DNA of 64,000 nt from Lachnospiraceae bacterium. GTDB taxonomy: Bacteria > Bacillota > Clostridia > Lachnospirales > Lachnospiraceae. The stretch spans positions 23,368-87,367 of the forward strand of contig JAFSYI010000054.1 in assembly GCA_017450065.1 (NCBI GenBank). Direction: 5' to 3'. A program made the translations under genes and the position numbers. Under the pieces are notes generated by a model, which worked only from the letters and a program-made list of their open reading frames with translations, searched no databases and was not told the DNA's origin. Shown here in pieces: positions 12,364 to 63,719 of the stretch. Numbering within the stretch: position 1 is the first letter of the stretch; every line of letters begins with the position of its first letter.

Positions 12364-13095
12364 TCAGCCCTTGTAGCCGATCTCATCCGCAAGCTTCTTC
12401 TCGATAACCACAATGGCATCGCGGTGCAGACGCATGAAGGTTGCCGGGCACTGAGGATCGATCTTGTCATCAAGAAGAAGCTTCCTTGCAGCGTCCTGCT
12501 TGTTTCCATTTATTATCATAAGAAGAGTCTTGGCCTTCATGATGCTTCCCATTCCCATTGTTACGGCATACCTCGGAACCTCGTCACGGCTCTCGAAGAA
12601 CCTTGTGTTGGCATCTATCGTGCTGTCCTCAAGCGTTTCCTTATGAGCCTTCTCATACAGGAAAGCACCGGGCTCATTGAAACCAAGATGTCCGTCGGGA
12701 CCTACACCCAGAACCTGAAGATCGATATCCGTCTTATCAAGAATATCGTTGAACTCCTTAAGGTTGGCCTCTACATCGCCCGTACCCTTTGCAACATAGG
12801 TATTGGCTTTATCTATATTGATGTGATCAAAAAGATTGTCATCCATAAAGAATCTGTAGCTCTGCGGATGATCCGGAGCCAGACCCACATACTCATCAAG
12901 ATTCACGGAATGAACCTTAGAGAAATCAAGTCCCTCCTCCTTACATCTTCTTGCAAGCTCCTTATACATGCCGACAGGTGATGAACCTGTTGCCAGACCA
13001 AGCGTACATTCCGGATTCTCCCTTACAAGCTTCTCAATGACATCAGCTGCTTTCTTAGCGCCTTCTTCATATGTATCTGCTACTATAACCTTCAT
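12364..13095 (-). CDS. nagB: glucosamine-6-phosphate deaminase
   Basis: A 243-residue enzyme that converts glucosamine-6-phosphate to fructose-6-phosphate and ammonia, opening amino sugars to glycolysis. Family motifs are seen: LGLATGSSPVGMYKEL (phosphate loop), SVNLDEYVGL (catalytic Asp), LGVGPDGHLGFNEPG and the VTMGMGSIMKAK region. Ribosome site AAAGGAG. It lies 106 bp after the beta-helix transferase gene in an amino-sugar block with glmM, so synthesis and breakdown of glucosamine phosphate sit side by side. Confidence 0.95.
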   Translation of the reverse strand: MKVIVADTYEEGAKKAADVIEKLVRENPECTLGLATGSSPVGMYKELARRCKEEGLDFSKVHSVNLDEYVGLAPDHPQSYRFFMDDNLFDHINIDKANTYVAKGTGDVEANLKEFNDILDKTDIDLQVLGVGPDGHLGFNEPGAFLYEKAHKETLEDSTIDANTRFFESRDEVPRYAVTMGMGSIMKAKTLLMIINGNKQDAARKLLLDDKIDPQCPATFMRLHRDAIVVIEKKLADEIGYKG

Positions 13096-54955: not shown

Positions 54956-56710
54956 TTATCCGCTATATAATCCTGCAATACACGATTTTTTACAGAAGCA
55001 TATTCCATATGCTATAACTTCATCATAGCCTTCATTATGTAAACCATCCACATATTTCCTGTCCCTGATCTGATTGAACGCTTCCTGAAGCCCTGTCTTC
55101 ATCCCGGAAAATTCCTTGCAGGATTTGCACTCAAATATATATGCCGGAATACCCGGGCGGTTTGGATACAGTATTATATCCGGCCGTCCTATGCCCGACT
55201 CACGGTTAGACTTTACAGAATACCTGGGAATACCATACAAAATGCTCAGGAAAAAACCGTGATAGAACCCCTCAGCACTGTCAAAAGTACTTATGCATTG
55301 GTCCAACAGGTCCGATACATAGTTTGCAATTCTGTCCGTATCCCTGTTAAGAATCGCCTCATGCAGGGGTGTTATATCCGTTTTCTTCACTATATCATCA
55401 AACCATTTTCTTATATGATTGCTGTATATGCTCCTTATTTCCCTGTTTGGTATACACATGGTCACGTATATGTCATCATCCACCTGCCGTTCGGATATCT
55501 TCCGCATATACCCCGTAAAGAACAGGAAGTTCCACAGATTATCTTCTGACTCATGTATATCATCATAGGTGATATCATCATGTATCTTTTTTTCTATCGT
55601 TCCTCCAGATATAAGAGCATCAAGTTCTTCTCTTACACTCTCATCATTATTGTATACGAAATCCCTGATCACTGAATTGGAGGAAGTATTGGACCAGTAC
55701 GGCTTCGGGAACCTATGCCCCCCATTCACTACTCCGTCTACATAACTCGTTATACTCCATGGATTATAGATCTCGGTTTCCCCGAACAGATAACCGTCAT
55801 ACCAGTCTTTAGCCTCTTCAAACTTTTCAGCCAACCCGTAGACATTCAGCATTTCTTCTGTTTCAGTCTGTGTGAATCCAAAATCCTCGGCGAAATCATC
55901 ATCCTGAATTGAATTGATCTTTAGATTGTTAAGCCCGGTAAATATACTTTCCTTACTGATCCGCAGGCAACCGGTCACTACTGCCTGTTCAAGTGCATCA
56001 TTGGTCTTTAATGCAGACTCAAACAACGAACGGACAAATCCGACCATCTCCTCATAGAAACCTTTATGATAGGCATTCTCAAGCGGAACATCATACTCAT
56101 CAAGAAGGATCACAACGTTAGTGCCATGATGCTTTTTCAGGTATCCTGAAAGTATCTGAAGTGCAGCTGCATATTTACTTTGTTCTTTCCTCAGCTCTTC
56201 CCTTTCTTCCTCTTTACTGTCAAAGTGTAATGATTTTTCAGTCCACTCTGATCTTCCATTGAGCAATTGGTTAAAATTCTTTCTTTCTTCATCCGTCAGT
56301 TTATCAGAATTTGAGAGATAATCATGCCTGCCAAACTCTGATATGACAGAATCCCGCAGTTGAATAAATGATCCATAGAAATCAGGCTGTTTAGCAGACT
56401 TAAGAGAAAGCTTTACCACAGGATACTTTCCCATTCTTGACAGAATATCATCTCCGGCTTCCATTATCTTCTTTCCCCCGAAATACCTGCGGTTATCTAC
56501 AATATTACCATTATAGTCATATTCGCATTCAAAGAAAGTTCGCAACATAGACAGAGCCAGTGTCTTCCCAAATCGTCTCGGACGGGTAAAAAGCGTAACC
56601 TTTCCGCCTTTCTCAATAACATCCCTTATCAGCAATGTCTTATCAACATAATACATATCCTGATCTATGAATTCTTTATAGTTCTCATATCCTATTCCGA
56701 TCTTTTTCAT
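54956..56710 (-). CDS. AAA-ATPase-like / PD-(D/E)XK nuclease-like protein
   Basis: A 584-residue protein of the AAA-ATPase-like plus DUF1703 type. The ATPase part has RPRRFGKTLALSML (Walker A, with the family's RRFGKT) and VVILLDEYDVPLE (Walker B). The C-terminus has a PD-(D/E)XK core: GRPDIILYPNR, then AYIFECKSCK. These proteins occur in many copies in gut anaerobes; the biological role is not known, with defence or DNA processing suspected. GAGGAG precedes the ATG. It stands alone with AT-rich flanks. Confidence 0.88.
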   Translation of the reverse strand: MKKIGIGYENYKEFIDQDMYYVDKTLLIRDVIEKGGKVTLFTRPRRFGKTLALSMLRTFFECEYDYNGNIVDNRRYFGGKKIMEAGDDILSRMGKYPVVKLSLKSAKQPDFYGSFIQLRDSVISEFGRHDYLSNSDKLTDEERKNFNQLLNGRSEWTEKSLHFDSKEEEREELRKEQSKYAAALQILSGYLKKHHGTNVVILLDEYDVPLENAYHKGFYEEMVGFVRSLFESALKTNDALEQAVVTGCLRISKESIFTGLNNLKINSIQDDDFAEDFGFTQTETEEMLNVYGLAEKFEEAKDWYDGYLFGETEIYNPWSITSYVDGVVNGGHRFPKPYWSNTSSNSVIRDFVYNNDESVREELDALISGGTIEKKIHDDITYDDIHESEDNLWNFLFFTGYMRKISERQVDDDIYVTMCIPNREIRSIYSNHIRKWFDDIVKKTDITPLHEAILNRDTDRIANYVSDLLDQCISTFDSAEGFYHGFFLSILYGIPRYSVKSNRESGIGRPDIILYPNRPGIPAYIFECKSCKEFSGMKTGLQEAFNQIRDRKYVDGLHNEGYDEVIAYGICFCKKSCIAGLYSG

Positions 56711-58853: not shown

Positions 58854-59144
58854 TTATAAAAAATCTATGATATCATAGAAGATATAAACTGGTTCAAAAG
58901 TCAAGGACTTTTTTGGGACAGAAATAAGGCTTTGATTTTCCAGCGGATCACCCGCCATTATAACGGTACCTTCCTCAAAAAAGTCTTCAACAGGAATCCA
59001 GGTTCTATCTTGAGCTGCCTCTACAACATTTCGCCATAGTGAAATAGAGTTTAAACCAACAAAGCCGCTCTCCTGTGCATCATTCACTTCAATCAGAATC
59101 CACCTTCCATCAGCAGTCTTTGCCAGATCGATAGCCGGGAACAC
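58854..59144 (-). pseudogene. C-terminal fragment of an ATP-grasp protein
   Basis: About 96 residues starting FPAIDLAKTADGRWILIEVN, which is the metal-binding end of an ATP-grasp domain (DUF4343-like). The N-terminal two thirds are missing, and an in-frame TAA lies just upstream. The only start is a GTG without a ribosome site. It directly follows the DUF4116 gene (24 bp), so a deletion has probably fused two loci. Confidence 0.6.
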
Positions 59145-59168
59145 AGCTGATAAATTTCTTTAACCTCA

Positions 59169-60587
59169 TCAGTCTTCTTGATCATATAGTTTTTGAATGC
59201 GCTTGCTCATCTGATAGATTTTCCAGCTTTTCTCAGTTTCCAACAAAGCTTTTGCGACTTCATCATTATCTCGCAACCTCTTTGAATAGTCCCGAATACA
59301 TGCATGGCCTTCTCGTATATCAAGTAATGCGATATCTAAATTGTCACGTAATCTTGCACTCAAATTACAAACTGTGCTTTCCGGATAATAATCTTTCTGG
59401 TTTCTGATCGCAAAAGCAGCCATTTCAAAATCATCTTTTATTCTCTCGGATGCCCATTCAATGTTCCGTCCGTTTGCCTCCAGCGCAATCTTCACCAGTT
59501 CTTCATTGTCCCGGTATGGAATCATACACCGCATCTTTAATGTATCACCATATTTACTTGAAAGTGCCAGCCTTATATATTCATCCTTGTACCTTAATTC
59601 CTTATTTACATACCGGATTGCCTCTCCGTTATCATGTAATGCAGCTATAATCACGTCTTCATCAGCATTGAATCTCTTAAACCTTTTCAGCGAAATCCCC
59701 ATTGCTGATACTGCCAAGAGAACAGAATCTTTTTGATTGAACACAAATGCAGGCATCTCGAGAGCCATGCGCGGTGCCTGCTTTAATACAGCTTCCATTA
59801 GTTGTAGCCATCTTGTCCGTTCATCTGCAGCCATTTTTCTGCTACATAGAATTGCCACATCATATGGAATAATATCCCAGTTCTTTGCATTATACGCATC
59901 AACAAATTCCTTAAATACCCGATATTGAATTTCAGTTAGCTGATATTTCGAAGCTAGCTTTTTGAACCGCTTCACATCAAGTACAATAGATCTTACTTTC
60001 TTTTTTGCCTTCTTAGCAGCCTCGTACTTATCAGGTTCATCTGCATACTTCTCTAAAATAGAATCCGGATAATCTCCCATAAGAGCTTTATATAACCTGC
60101 GCAAATGTGAAAAAGTAAAATCATCATATATGCTTCTGTAAAATGGATTCTCGTAATCAAAAGAATCAATAACCATCGAAGCTATTCTTAGCGTTATTTC
60201 AGATGACAAATTGTCAGGATGCCCTTCCTCAAAATCTAATTTCTGACCATGAATATACTTATTCCTGATACCCAAGCCCATTCCAAAGTGATGTCCAGTA
60301 GAGTCAGGATGATCAAAAATATAAGCTTTATCCTCATCACTAAGCCCGTCGTATACTTCCTTCGCTACAGAATATACAAATTCGTCACGTTTACGGTTTT
60401 TCTCCTTCACCTTTGCATAATAGTTTTCTATTGCCTGAATCAGCTCCTCAGATGGATTTTTTGAGATCGTATACTTCACAAGCCAATCATATTCTTTAGT
60501 CACATCGAAATATTCCGGAAAATTATCATAAATAGCTTTCGTATCTTCATTTTCATAGAAAACATTACCTACTTGAATTTTTTTCAT
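59169..60587 (-). CDS. DUF4116-type repeat protein, unknown
   Basis: A 472-residue protein. The N-terminal 300 residues are helical, charged and not recognised. The C-terminal part has repeated helices of about 22-25 residues (LVKIALEANGRNIEWASERI, MAAFAIRNQKDY, IALLDIREGHACIRDYSKRL) that match DUF4116 repeats. Such repeats form binding surfaces; no catalytic motif is visible. AGAGGT sets the start at 60587. It is the third gene of the operon headed by the metallophosphoesterase. Confidence 0.65.
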   Translation of the reverse strand: MKKIQVGNVFYENEDTKAIYDNFPEYFDVTKEYDWLVKYTISKNPSEELIQAIENYYAKVKEKNRKRDEFVYSVAKEVYDGLSDEDKAYIFDHPDSTGHHFGMGLGIRNKYIHGQKLDFEEGHPDNLSSEITLRIASMVIDSFDYENPFYRSIYDDFTFSHLRRLYKALMGDYPDSILEKYADEPDKYEAAKKAKKKVRSIVLDVKRFKKLASKYQLTEIQYRVFKEFVDAYNAKNWDIIPYDVAILCSRKMAADERTRWLQLMEAVLKQAPRMALEMPAFVFNQKDSVLLAVSAMGISLKRFKRFNADEDVIIAALHDNGEAIRYVNKELRYKDEYIRLALSSKYGDTLKMRCMIPYRDNEELVKIALEANGRNIEWASERIKDDFEMAAFAIRNQKDYYPESTVCNLSARLRDNLDIALLDIREGHACIRDYSKRLRDNDEVAKALLETEKSWKIYQMSKRIQKLYDQED

Positions 60588-60626
60588 GATCTGTACCTCT
60601 TTCAAAAAAGATATACCTCTTCCAAA

Positions 60627-60797
60627 TCAAAAATCCGCCAATTCCCTGTCTCCGGCATCATCTGGCAACAAACAAATGAATCCCTTGCCATCATATGTAA
60701 AAAACAGCTTCGTAACCATTCCGTAATCTCTTACTGTTCCATGTATATCATACTTTTCGGAATATACTTCTACTTCTTCGAGTAACAACTTTGCCAT
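60627..60797 (-). CDS. small protein of 56 residues, unknown
   Basis: MAKLLLEEVEVYSEKYDIHG, then VRDYGMVTKLFFTYDGKGF and a short acidic end. It has a ribosome site (AGGTGAAG), good codon structure and sits 22 bp after the metallophosphoesterase and 39 bp before the DUF4116 gene. Its small beta-rich pattern could suit a partner or inhibitor. No family recognised. Confidence 0.65.
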   Translation of the reverse strand: MAKLLLEEVEVYSEKYDIHGTVRDYGMVTKLFFTYDGKGFICLLPDDAGDRELADF

Positions 60798-60819
60798 ATT
60801 CTTCACCTACCTTCTTGAA

Positions 60820-61371
60820 TCAGCTCTCCGATCTTCCTCCGATATTGTTCTTCTTAAATGCCTCGTTATTTCTAACAAGCTCATTAAACGATGCAGGTGC
60901 GTAGTTGTTGATCATACATCCAGCATTCAGCGCATGATCCTTCTTCTTCATAACCTCATACGCCTCGTCCTTACGGTTATGGATATGGCCATATATATGA
61001 TAGCTTTCATGGAAATAAGCGTTCCACTCAACTATTGGGAAATGGCAAAGGCTAATCTGATGCTCCCCGTCCTTGACATGTGGTCTAAGCTCATGCACCT
61101 TACCGCCATGCCACATCTTCACTGGGTATCCGTTCAACCTGTCGATATTCTCATGATTACCATCAATGAACAAAAGAGTGTAAGATCGCTCCTCAAACCA
61201 GTCAAGCCAGTGCTTTTCATGCTTGCTTTCCCATCCGACATCCCATACACCGCCGAAATCACCGCAGATCAGCACATAATCGTCCTTGGACATCTCCTTC
61301 TGTTCCGGGAAATTTTCCATATTAAATCTATGCTTAAACTCTCCGTGAGTATCTCCGGTAATGTAAATCAT
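60820..61371 (-). CDS. metallophosphoesterase
   Basis: A 183-residue calcineurin-like phosphoesterase with all core motifs: ITGDTHGE, ICGDFGG, FIDGNHEN and YGHIHN. A two-metal site should hydrolyse a phosphoester or nucleotide; the substrate is unknown. GGAGGA seven bases upstream sets the start at 61371. It heads the operon with the 56-residue protein and the DUF4116 protein, under a promoter that shares a dyad with the XRE gene's promoter. Confidence 0.88.
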   Translation of the reverse strand: MIYITGDTHGEFKHRFNMENFPEQKEMSKDDYVLICGDFGGVWDVGWESKHEKHWLDWFEERSYTLLFIDGNHENIDRLNGYPVKMWHGGKVHELRPHVKDGEHQISLCHFPIVEWNAYFHESYHIYGHIHNRKDEAYEVMKKKDHALNAGCMINNYAPASFNELVRNNEAFKKNNIGGRSES

Positions 61372-61391
61372 CAAAATTCCTCCACAATACA

Positions 61392-61437
61392 ATTTTATCT
61401 GCGGTTACGGGCTTTGTCATTCAACGTATGGTTGAAT
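61392..61437 (-). promoter_or_regulatory. metallophosphoesterase promoter with XRE-type dyad operator
   Basis: ATGACA (61420-61415), a 17-bp spacer and TAAAAT (61397-61392). The perfect dyad ATTCAAC-N5-GTTGAAT (61419-61437) overlaps the -35. The same arrangement occurs before the XRE gene. Confidence 0.7.
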
Positions 61438-61440
61438 AAG

Positions 61441-61468
61441 CAAAACTCCCAACATTTCAGTCGGGAGT
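61441..61468 (-). terminator. terminator of the XRE-ATPase operon
   Basis: On the minus strand ACTCCCGA pairs with TTGGGAGT and TTTTG follows. It lies seven bases after the stop codon of the 42-residue gene. Confidence 0.75.
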
Positions 61469-61474
61469 GATCTG

Positions 61475-61603
61475 TCAAAACTGATTTACGAATTGCTTGA
61501 ACTCTTCAAAATCTGCTTTCGTCATGACTGTATCGGAATAACAATAGTCCTTACATAATCTCTCCGTATCCTTAAATACTGTTACATTTTCATCTCTTCC
61601 CAT
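61475..61603 (-). CDS. small protein of 42 residues, like the N-terminus of PARG-type (TIGR02452) proteins
   Basis: MGRDENVTVFKDTERLCKDY resembles, from memory, the first residues of microbial poly(ADP-ribose) glycohydrolase-like proteins; the rest (TKADFEEFKQFVNQF) does not continue that family. AGGAG precedes the ATG, and it is 12 bp after the ATPase gene. It may be a gene cut short by deletion or a real small protein. Confidence 0.55.
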   Translation of the reverse strand: MGRDENVTVFKDTERLCKDYCYSDTVMTKADFEEFKQFVNQF

Positions 61604-61615
61604 AATTCATATCTC

Positions 61616-62428
61616 CTATTCAAATTCAATCTCGTGCTTCTTAAAAAAGTTGTAGAAATAGCGTACATTTTCCAGATCCTGCCATCTTGATACATCCATA
61701 CATTCATCATCCATGTTGTATATTCGGGCATTTAATGTTCCCAGCATAAACGGTGAATGAGTCGCTATAATGAATTGACAGTTCAAAAATCGGGCCAGCT
61801 TGTTGATCTCCTCCGTAAGCTTTTCCTGATTAGACGGGGACAATGACACCTCCGGTTCATCAAGCAAATATAGATTTTCAGGTTCCAAGCTATTCTCTAG
61901 AATAGTCATGGCAGTTTCACCATTAGAGTATTTCTCCTGGTTAAACTGAATACATGCAAGCCGTGACGGTGCACCTTTCATGACCGGTGAGTGAAGCTTA
62001 AGGATTGCTTGCTCCTTTGTGAGGTTATTGATGCGCATCTCATCGAAAACATAGCCATTTTCTAGAGCGCTTTCCTGTTCAACCTTTTTCACCTCATAAA
62101 GCAGATCCTCACTCTTTAAGTAAAGACTACCTTTAGGTATCATCAGCTCATGGCCGTAGTCATCTTCTCCGTAACTTATCGTACATTCTGAAACAAATTG
62201 CTCTATTCCAAGCTGACTGACAGTATAGTCCTCATATCCCCTTGCCTGTATTTTCTTGGCAACCAGGTTTAAAAGAGTTGACTTACCGCAACCATTGTTA
62301 CCATAGAAAATTGTTATCGGAGCAAATATAAAAGGATATATCTCTTTGTTTCGGAACACGTTGTATGGATAAAGATTGGGATTATTTACACGGTGTTCCG
62401 ATACCTTAAAGCTGCTCAAATATATCAT
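61616..62428 (-). CDS. AAA family (ABC-like) ATPase
   Basis: A 270-residue single-domain ATPase of the AAA_21/SMC-like type. Walker A is YGNNGCGKSTLLN, the signature-like stretch YSNGETAM, Walker B LYLLDEPEVSLSP and the switch FIIATHSPFML. There is no membrane part and no nuclease domain. Such ATPases power defence and DNA-repair systems, often with a separate effector. It follows the XRE gene by 41 bp and precedes the 42-residue gene by 12 bp. Confidence 0.85.
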   Translation of the reverse strand: MIYLSSFKVSEHRVNNPNLYPYNVFRNKEIYPFIFAPITIFYGNNGCGKSTLLNLVAKKIQARGYEDYTVSQLGIEQFVSECTISYGEDDYGHELMIPKGSLYLKSEDLLYEVKKVEQESALENGYVFDEMRINNLTKEQAILKLHSPVMKGAPSRLACIQFNQEKYSNGETAMTILENSLEPENLYLLDEPEVSLSPSNQEKLTEEINKLARFLNCQFIIATHSPFMLGTLNARIYNMDDECMDVSRWQDLENVRYFYNFFKKHEIEFE

Positions 62429-62469
62429 CAGATAAATACCTGTCCTTCAAAACACTTATAATAGTATCC

Positions 62470-62751
62470 TTAAGCAGCCATCATATACTCAATAATATGA
62501 ACAGAAGAGGACTGTTCGTCCTCTTCGTGATCCTTGATTATATCGTAAAGATTGGCTTCGTAAAGTTCCATCAATGCGAACATGGTATCTGCCTGGGGAT
62601 AGCTCTTGCCCTTCTCGTATTTGTAGATCGCCTGAACTGATCCAAGGCAAAGATACTCTCTTACGTCATCTACGGAGAGGTTTTTCGCTACACGAAGGCG
62701 CTTCAAATTCTGTCCAACAACCTTCATGTCATATTCCGGACGGTAAATCAT
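62470..62751 (-). CDS. XRE-family transcriptional regulator
   Basis: A 93-residue protein with a helix-turn-helix (about 15-70): VGQNLKRLRVAKNLSVDDV, then VQAIYKYEKGKSYPQADTM, and a short acidic C-terminus. GGAGGAGG eight bases upstream sets the start at 62751; the frame is open to 62844 but that part lies in the promoter. A dyad at its promoter and at the metallophosphoesterase promoter suggests it controls itself and both operons. Confidence 0.88.
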   Translation of the reverse strand: MIYRPEYDMKVVGQNLKRLRVAKNLSVDDVREYLCLGSVQAIYKYEKGKSYPQADTMFALMELYEANLYDIIKDHEEDEQSSSVHIIEYMMAA

Positions 62752-62815
62752 CACATTCCTCCTCCTGTACTCGATACGCGAGCACGCGCTACATGTATTA
62801 TTGGGGAACTTTAAT

Positions 62816-62861
62816 AGCATAACACCGCAGAAACACTTTGTCATTTAACTGTTAGTTGAAA
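62816..62861 (-). promoter_or_regulatory. XRE gene promoter with dyad operator
   Basis: ATGACA (62844-62839), a 17-bp spacer and TATGCT with extended TG (62821-62816). The dyad TTTAACT-GTT-AGTTGAA overlaps the -35, one mismatch from perfect, and matches the site at 61413-61437 at TTTGTCATT, AAC and GTTGAA. Confidence 0.7.
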
Positions 62862-63118: not shown

Positions 63119-63719
63119 TTATACTTCGCCGGCTTTAAGATGTTCTATTTCCTTCAGCGCTGCTTCAAGCTGCTTAGAGGTTTCATCAAGCTTTTGCTCG
63201 GCTTCGCTGCATTTCTGCTCCGCATCATCGGCACGCTTCTTTTCACGATCGGTATTATCCTTCTCCTGTTTAATACCTTTCTTAACGCCTTCTTCAACAC
63301 CGGCCTTAAATCCGGTTTTGTAGCTGCTTGCCCAGTCGCGCTCATAGCGTTCCCTGGCCTCACATTGTAGTCTGATTGCTTCATCCGATGATACAGCATA
63401 TATTGAATTTGCCGCCTCTTTAGCGAAATCATACTGATTGGCGATCATCTTTATTTCCTCCCAGGTCTTGGCCTTAAACAGGCGTGCCCATACATCCAGA
63501 TCATTCTTTTTATCATCTTCAGTCGCACTATCTATACATCTTAAGTTTAGCACATTTATCCCAAATTTGTCAGTATAAACATGCCCGTCTCGGATGTTTT
63601 TGATCCTGTAACGGGAATAAAACTCGCTCATACCGTCAAACAGATCAAAGTCTATGATACCTATATGCAGGCATGGCATAGCATATGGCTGTATTTCTTT
63701 TTCCTTTTATCTCAAACAT
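63119..63719 (-). pseudogene. Rpn/PD-(D/E)XK transposase-like gene, truncated and frameshifted
   Basis: The long part (from 63679) reads IGIIDFDLFDGMSEFYSRYR, later DLDVWARLFKAKTWEEIKM and EEGVKKGIKQEK, which fits the C-terminal half of Rpn-type recombination-promoting nucleases, ending in a Glu/Lys coil. Upstream, MFEIKGK (ATG 63719) is in another frame and would join EIQPYAMPCLHIG by a one-base change at an A-run. The N-terminal nuclease half is missing. Confidence 0.6.

Follow-up and report, generated by a model that had tools for sequence, protein, structure and literature searches.

A putative XRE-operator regulon for damaged RNA and failing translation across Lachnospiraceae, with a remodeled local member

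The stretch of DNA analyzed here, a 64-kb window of a Lachnospiraceae genome (contig JAFSYI010000054.1 of a 3.2-Mb assembly that is 88% complete), carries between positions 62860 and 58854 a small island of two minus-strand transcription units. The first unit holds, in order, a gene for a small XRE-type regulator, an AAA ATPase gene, an open reading frame (ORF) of 42 amino acids (aa), and a hairpin. The second holds a metallophosphoesterase (MPE) gene, a 56-aa ORF, a DUF4116 protein gene, and a fragment of an R2K_3 gene (Table 1). Each unit is headed by the same element, in which the final base of a 17-bp dyad, TTCAAC-N5-GTTRAA, is also the first base of the -35 hexamer of a promoter. We hold, with moderate confidence, that this element marks an XRE-operator regulon for damaged RNA and failing translation across Lachnospiraceae, of which the window island is a remodeled local member.

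Table 1. Positions of the island's features in the window, and of two recurrent features in other genomes
Feature	Position	Strand	Remarks
Operator-promoter site 1	62839..62860	-	dyad TTCAAC-TAACA-GTTAAA overlapping -35 ATGACA; -10 TATGCT at 62816-62821
XRE/HTH_3 regulator, small, 93 aa	62470..62751	-	start at 62751
AAA_21/AAA_15-type ATPase, 270 aa	61616..62428	-	
42-aa ORF, in-frame deletion scar	61475..61603	-	
Terminator-like hairpin, unit 1 end	61445..61468	-	z -3.9
Operator-promoter site 2	61415..61436	-	dyad TTCAAC-CATAC-GTTGAA overlapping -35 ATGACA; -10 TAAAAT at 61392-61397
MPE, 183 aa, natural hybrid	60820..61371	-	
56-aa ORF	60627..60797	-	without family match
DUF4116-repeat protein, 472 aa	59169..60587	-	function unassigned; partner role not conserved
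Truncated R2K-clade (R2K_3) ATP-grasp remnant	58854..59144	-	C-terminal part only; stops separate the R2K ORF from the DUF4116 gene
219-aa family places	L091:5526-6242; also L143, L151, L156, L168, L177, L228, L237, L249, L296		
45-base promoter copies	G002:C58:165854, G035:C110:2484, G036:C7:159177, G040:C44:16950, G272:C8:3169		

Two transcription units and a remodeled island

A first-pass annotation, made from the letters alone, had proposed two like promoters with ATGACA at -35, a 17-bp spacer, and a good -10, each with a dyad overlapping its -35. A sequence scan bears this out at 62860-62816 and 61436-61392, together with the proposed gene order of both units. The 22-base pattern TTCAACNNNNNGTTRAATGACA has exactly two perfect matches in the assembly, both within the island; the remaining assembly matches listed carry 3 mismatches each, and a search of the window for further sites with up to 3 mismatches plus a -10 found none. 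Promoter consensus matches in this stretch do not exceed chance (17 observed vs. 14.3 expected), and the significant feature is the dyad, rather than the match to the promoter consensus. The clear terminator that had been ascribed to each operon holds for the first unit only, because the hairpin 3′ of the second is weak (z -0.4). The stretch from 58854, included in the range first annotated, is the truncated R2K ATP-grasp ORF. A role in phage-host conflict has been proposed for R2K proteins (PMC4431377).

The regulator belongs to the XRE (HTH_3) family (PF01381, 27.8 bits against a curated cut-off of 23), and Pfam recognizes in it a helix-turn-helix domain alone, with no second domain. A longer, 124-aa version was rejected: the start of its ORF at 62844 precedes the -10, and similarity to locus L089 at the DNA level starts only at 62808. 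The XRE is therefore most likely the 93-aa protein listed in Table 1. It is 92% identical to the XRE of a congener and 83% identical over 84 aa to that of locus L139. Four other genera carry copies of the ATPase, at 96, 94, 89, and 87% identity, adjoining the same element, and a plasmid search returned relatives of the ATPase alone, all below 60% identity. The MPE exceeds the PF00149 cut-off and so belongs to the superfamily. Its residues D7, H9, G37-D38, G71-N72-H73, and G128 are invariant across ten sequences, and we take them to correspond to the GDxH, GD, GNH, and GH-type motifs of that superfamily.

Locus L141, from another genus, matches the window DNA at 92.6% over 62437-61550 and at 97.7% over 61552-61076. 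In L141 these two blocks lie 1.9 kb apart, and the DNA between them holds a TIGR02452 gene body, a gene encoding 187 aa, and the first part of one encoding 116 aa; in the window, the matching blocks overlap by 3 bp at a junction within the 42-aa ORF. Eighteen residues of that ORF are identical to the start of the TIGR02452/PARG-like protein, and 25 match the end of the 116-aa protein at 96% identity. What had been annotated as a 42-aa gene product is an in-frame junction of these two genes, and we reject it as a genuine small protein. A second junction lies within the MPE. One MPE family in L141 shares 97% identity with residues 1-99, and the protein from residue 100 to its end at 183 follows another, with 62% identity over 80 aa to L090 and 74% over 53 aa to L139. 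Two PHROGs match the protein, one of them covering residues 1-99 only. Judged by its sequence, the window MPE is a fusion of two MPE families. The cross-genus identity and the fusions suggest that island modules have been transferred and shuffled, and the window island is a remodeled, partly worn member of the regulon.

The first-pass annotation had proposed looking for co-occurrence of the island's genes in other genomes, and part of the set does recur. Beside the element, L092 has an AAA ATPase, TIGR02452, and an XRE; L141 an AAA ATPase, TIGR02452, and an MPE; L139 an XRE, TIGR02452, and an MPE; L145 an AAA ATPase, a truncated XRE, and an MPE; and L144 an AAA ATPase with an MPE-like piece. 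The XRE of L145 (genome G202, 12787-12960), which adjoins the AAA gene, is only 57 aa long, so that this copy of the regulator is truncated. The DUF4116 and 56-aa proteins are not conserved partners. The former is present in just 2 of 79 other relatives, with no element found in the 3.4-3.7 kb around these two, and the latter has no relative among the loci compared. Both were rejected as conserved members of the island.

Two neighboring genes are recorded as side observations. A PDDEXK_2/Rpn-type nuclease-transposase gene lies upstream of the island, at 63119-63679. A large protein with a similar start by eye (the YYYVDKTLLIRDF type) is encoded near islands of three genomes, in the window at 54956-56710 and elsewhere at L091:444-2363 and L141:9476-11359.

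Spread of the element and its link to a small XRE family

The exact 22-base window motif was set aside as a search key, since the 36 other genomes of the window's genus give only matches with 1 or 2 mismatches. The relaxed pattern TTNNACNNNNNGTTNAATGACA, with variable positions loosened and no -10 required, finds 60 sites in 41 of 299 family genomes, against 2 for the reversed pattern. Although no -10 was asked for, 46 of the 60 show TANNNT 16-18 bp downstream; the other 14 served as a control set (14 loci, 174 kb). When the -10 is required and GTA half-sites are allowed (TTNWAC-N5-GTWNAATGACA-N17-TANNNT), 83 sites appear in 58 of the 299 genomes, representing 57 of 298 genera, and the reversed control yields 0 sites in the same genomes. 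A stricter form with the -10 occurs in 2 of 291 genomes taken class-wide. Ten of the 291 are family members; of the two matches, one is in the window genome itself and the other in 1 of the 281 genomes outside the family. Named genomes hold at least 118 stretches with the element, with Lachnospiraceae in 42 of 80 titles among the matches listed. These matches also include Butyrivibrio, Pseudobutyrivibrio, Coprococcus, unresolved Clostridia, Flavonifractor, Dysosmobacter, Oscillospiraceae, and Ruminococcus and, more distantly, Treponema, Oceanobacillus, Methylococcales, and a few others. The border at the family is therefore not sharp.

The dyad is symmetric beyond what its definition imposes. 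When each physical dyad from the named-genome search is counted once, the free outer half-site positions are complementary in 51 of 123, compared with a shuffled mean of 30.2, and 0 of 10,000 shuffles reach 51. The strict dyad TTNAACYNNNRGTTNAA gives 174 hits on both strands in 1.24 Mb of site loci, and random family DNA (400 kb) gives 2; shortening the spacer to 4 bp leaves 0 hits, and lengthening it to 6 bp leaves 2. Of 167 distinct sites, a single one falls within an ORF on its own strand, the only strand counted. The element thus defined appears to behave as an operator-promoter. Three dyads (L194:1000, L214:4890, and L263:1261) are flanked by TGACA on either side and may each serve two divergent promoters.

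Near-identical 45-base promoter copies, spacer included, occur in five genomes of three genera and form a recurring promoter cassette (Table 1). The near-identity of some 45-mers across genera, together with the transferred look of the islands, would suit a mobile constitutive promoter cassette whose linkage to XRE genes reflects shared mobility rather than regulation. We regard this as highly improbable: half-sites vary and yet retain dyad symmetry, and -10 spacers differ among most of the sites compared. Half-sites also track the recognition helix of the XRE, in that GTWCAA accompanies 21 of 22 XREs with a YH helix and 21 of 76 with a YK helix, counts that are uncorrected for kinship.

The element and the small XRE family occur together across genomes. 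The 299 family genomes were searched with a profile built from 12 XREs, of which eleven came from site loci; a match was called strong at E values up to 1e-26, a cut chosen after the table had been inspected. Strong XREs are present in 49 of 58 genomes with sites vs. 23 of 241 without (p 3e-29); when the 11 seed genomes are left out, the association persists (p 5e-23). A site is found no more than 5 kb from 47 of the 80 best XRE matches, and 59 of the 83 sites have one of these matches at that distance or closer. The window genome has a single XRE of this family, flanked by its two exact sites. Starting from RtcB gives the same association. Of 150 genomes, 46 have RtcB, at 61 places, 60 of which were retrieved to give 61 RtcB-like ORFs; a relaxed site lies within 1.5 kb upstream of 14 of these ORFs, namely 11 of the 16 with an XRE within 2.5 kb vs. 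3 of the 45 without (p 2.8e-6). We infer that the XRE binds the dyad and is the likely regulator of the element-bearing promoters. One regulon under an XRE, as the first-pass annotation had suggested, receives strong comparative support well beyond the window locus, and on these counts a regulon defined by the element almost certainly exists.

Genes and tRNAs behind the element

The genes near sites include RtcB (PF01139), a DRB0094-type RNA ligase (TIGR02306, above cut-off), TIGR02452/PARG_cat_microb proteins, and several MPEs. They also include DUF2828/DUF7788 proteins, which we take to be Ro-like, and ClpX-like, UvrD, PD-(D/E)XK, and MoxR/DUF2201 proteins. Once 13 overlapping loci were discarded, profiles found 67 XRE, 29 MPE, 7 RtcB, 5 RNA ligase, 4 PARG, and 10 Ro-like genes in the remaining 1.13 Mb of site loci. 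Applied to random family DNA (400 kb), they find 3 XREs at a single locus and a single hit with each of two MPE profiles out of three; RtcB, RNA ligase, PARG, and Ro-like genes were not found there. The 14 control loci have one Ro-like gene and none of the other profiled families. RtcB, RNA ligase, MPE, TIGR02452, and DUF2828 genes are enriched near sites relative to random family DNA. At the 20 loci with GTA-type half-sites, RtcB lies downstream in 12 and an XRE in 17, with RtcB followed by the XRE in 11. Three families recur as first genes without a Pfam or NCBIfam match above cut-off, with lengths of 219, 175, and 213 aa. The PHROG tail-fiber label of the 219-aa family (phrog_1491) was not taken as its function. 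Searches of sequences of solved structures with a Ro-like protein and an MPE found nothing, and no RNA ligase was found among the scanned proteins of the window island.

tRNA genes also follow the element. ARAGORN places tRNAs on the same strand, starting within 3 kb downstream, at 32 of 191 distinct sites, 108 tRNAs in all. Other placements are rarer among the 191: 1 site has tRNAs downstream on the opposite strand, 8 upstream on the same strand, and 2 upstream on the opposite strand. Random family DNA contains 20 tRNAs per 400 kb. A tRNA gene lies 85-126 bp past the stop codon of 11 of 17 genes of the 219-aa family, typically at about 105 bp, and its anticodon varies; L168 and L277, both counted for this family, are the same place. 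Arrays of 5 to 18 tRNA genes mixed with XRE, RtcB, or Ro-like genes were observed at L146, L158, L342, L326, and L337, the largest having 18 tRNAs per locus (L146 and L158). At 13 loci, Rfam at its gathering threshold reports tRNAs only, and no Y RNA. One paper describes dense tRNA arrays as believed to be present in few phyla, Firmicutes in particular (Front Microbiol 2018, PMC5966550). The arrays described there differ from the present ones in that some of ours sit under a defined promoter common to RNA-repair genes. Taken with the gene sets above, these arrays make tRNA damage or translation stress the probable function of the regulon.

The AAA ATPase invites another reading, in which it and the MPE, as effector, form a defense or abortive-infection island under the XRE. 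The first-pass annotation had likened the layout to defense and stress islands. The PADLOC models of Septu PtuA (PtuA1) and AriA both match the ATPase, and a patchy distribution together with DNA of 93-98% identity in another genus suggests transfer. Moreover, one site-driven locus encodes, downstream of a DUF2828 gene, a protein with a TIR domain plus leucine-rich repeats (L147:9141-11324). The PADLOC matches, however, cover the shared AAA_21-type ATPase core, and the 270-aa window protein differs from Septu and AriAB in having no PtuB or AriB partner among the neighbors scanned; neither an HNH nor a Toprim partner was found among ten neighboring ORFs. The genes that recurrently follow the promoters are XREs, RtcB, RNA ligases, phosphoesterases, unnamed families, and tRNAs, partners that point toward RNA repair and the supply of tRNA. 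We consider a defense island unlikely on this evidence. RNA repair can be antiphage, so that the defense and RNA-repair readings overlap.

A proposed switch and its known counterparts

Our proposal is that an XRE dimer would bind the 17-bp dyad (TTNWAC-N5-GTWNAA), whose final base coincides with the first of the -35, often at its own promoter as well, and would keep near-consensus promoters shut. By analogy with the proposal for the unrelated TrcR, the XRE may be an autoregulated, short-lived repressor that is lost when translation stalls: once translation fails, unstable XRE would not be replaced and the promoters would open. Open promoters would then provide RNA-end processing, ligation, and fresh tRNAs, with tRNA repair and replacement as the presumed output. 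In the window, the two promoters would drive the XRE with the AAA ATPase and the hybrid MPE with two unnamed proteins. Elsewhere they would drive varying sets of RtcB and DRB0094 RNA ligases, MPEs, PARG-like macrodomain proteins, Ro-like proteins, uncharacterized families, and tRNAs. That the XRE represses, rather than activates, is a view we lean toward with some reserve.

A number of observations weigh against this proposal. The 64-kb window has no tRNA gene, and RtcB has no match in the 88% complete window genome, so that the partners that would tell most are missing from the island itself. Nine genomes with sites have no strong XRE, and the 23 site-less genomes with a strong XRE are site-less by the exact pattern. 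Within the window's own genus, exact sites are confined to 4 of 37 genomes, and carriage is therefore patchy. The family profiles were built from members of site loci, so that the enrichment count favors these families, and a simple ORF rule recognizes no downstream operon for 33 of 167 sites. In the RtcB survey, 47 of the 61 family ORFs have no such site upstream; the link to RNA repair therefore holds for a subset. Finally, the phase between dyad and -10 is likely fixed, and a fixed phase would suit an activator better than a repressor.

This last point leads to the same regulon with the XRE as a class II activator, its dyad centered near -43 and polymerase recruited upon a signal. Lambda CI at PRM is a class II activator with a site comparable in position. 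The 174 strict hits correspond to 91 physical dyads, of which 7 (6 places after duplicate removal) have TGACA on neither side. None of the six had served to select loci, and four of them (L139, L142, L226, and L238) keep TANNNT 17 bp after AATG, as an activator site might. The other two are out of phase on the promoter side, and the fixed phase is partly built in, because most loci were selected with a pattern that included TGACA or the -10. In addition, both hexamers come close to consensus, and a TG frequently precedes the -10, as is typical of strong promoters that need repression; the XRE shows the helix-turn-helix domain alone; and an activator that must itself be translated is poorly suited as a switch for failing translation. 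We regard activation as doubtful.

Two known systems are functional counterparts of the proposed regulon. In Anabaena sp. PCC 7120, the regulator TrcR targets a tRNA operon, RtcB, and RimK, and deletion of trcR raises a TIGR02452 protein and an AAA ATPase (Wang et al. 2023, PMC10272220). TrcR is small and autoregulated, with a binding site conserved across its bacterial group, and antibiotics that inhibit translation relieve its repression while TrcR protein falls (PMC10272220). One likeness is a shared site over tRNA genes and RtcB, which is found in other members of the XRE regulon and not in the window island. The differences are as clear: TrcR is a ribbon-helix-helix protein, whereas the island's regulator is an XRE/HTH_3 protein; the TrcR site overlaps the -10 at its own promoter, whereas the present dyad ends on the -35; and the XRE regulon adds RNA ligases, MPEs, and Ro-like proteins in a different group, the Lachnospiraceae.

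The RtcR-controlled rtcBA and rsr-yrlBA-rtcBA operons couple RNA repair by RtcB with a Ro60-related protein and tRNA-like RNA (Hughes et al. 2020, PMC7790460), under an enhancer-binding activator with a CARF ligand domain (PMC7790460). Common to both is RNA repair under dedicated transcriptional control. The present regulon differs in its small XRE, which stands in place of a sigma-54 CARF activator, and in its sigma-70 type promoters and dispersed membership; RtcB or an RNA ligase, which defines the RtcR operon, is present in sister loci and was not found in the window island. The TrcR and RtcR regulators are unrelated to the XRE, and the island is therefore a member of neither system. The 2016 survey of RNA repair by Burroughs and Aravind is said to cover ligase, end-processing enzyme, scaffold, and non-coding RNA as components of modular sets; its subject is reportedly gene content rather than a shared operator-promoter. 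Among the open-access literature matches listed, none described an RNA-repair or tRNA regulon under XRE control in Lachnospiraceae.

We are inclined, somewhat more than evenly, to see here a third transcriptional system that answers tRNA damage and translation stress, evolved independently of RtcR and TrcR and built of shuffled, transferable island modules. Its promoters would drive genes for RNA ligases and end-processing enzymes, tRNA arrays kept in reserve, and families not yet described, the 219-aa protein among them. If so, bacteria of a major gut and rumen family possess a dedicated, previously unnamed regulon that repairs and replaces damaged tRNA and bears a readable DNA signature. This signature would predict regulon members in any genome, and would offer hints to the function of the 219-, 175-, and 213-aa families, the AAA ATPase, and the phosphoesterases. 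The sensing of failing translation without RtcR or TrcR would become testable. Overall, three unrelated regulators over similar gene sets would constitute a clear case of convergence.

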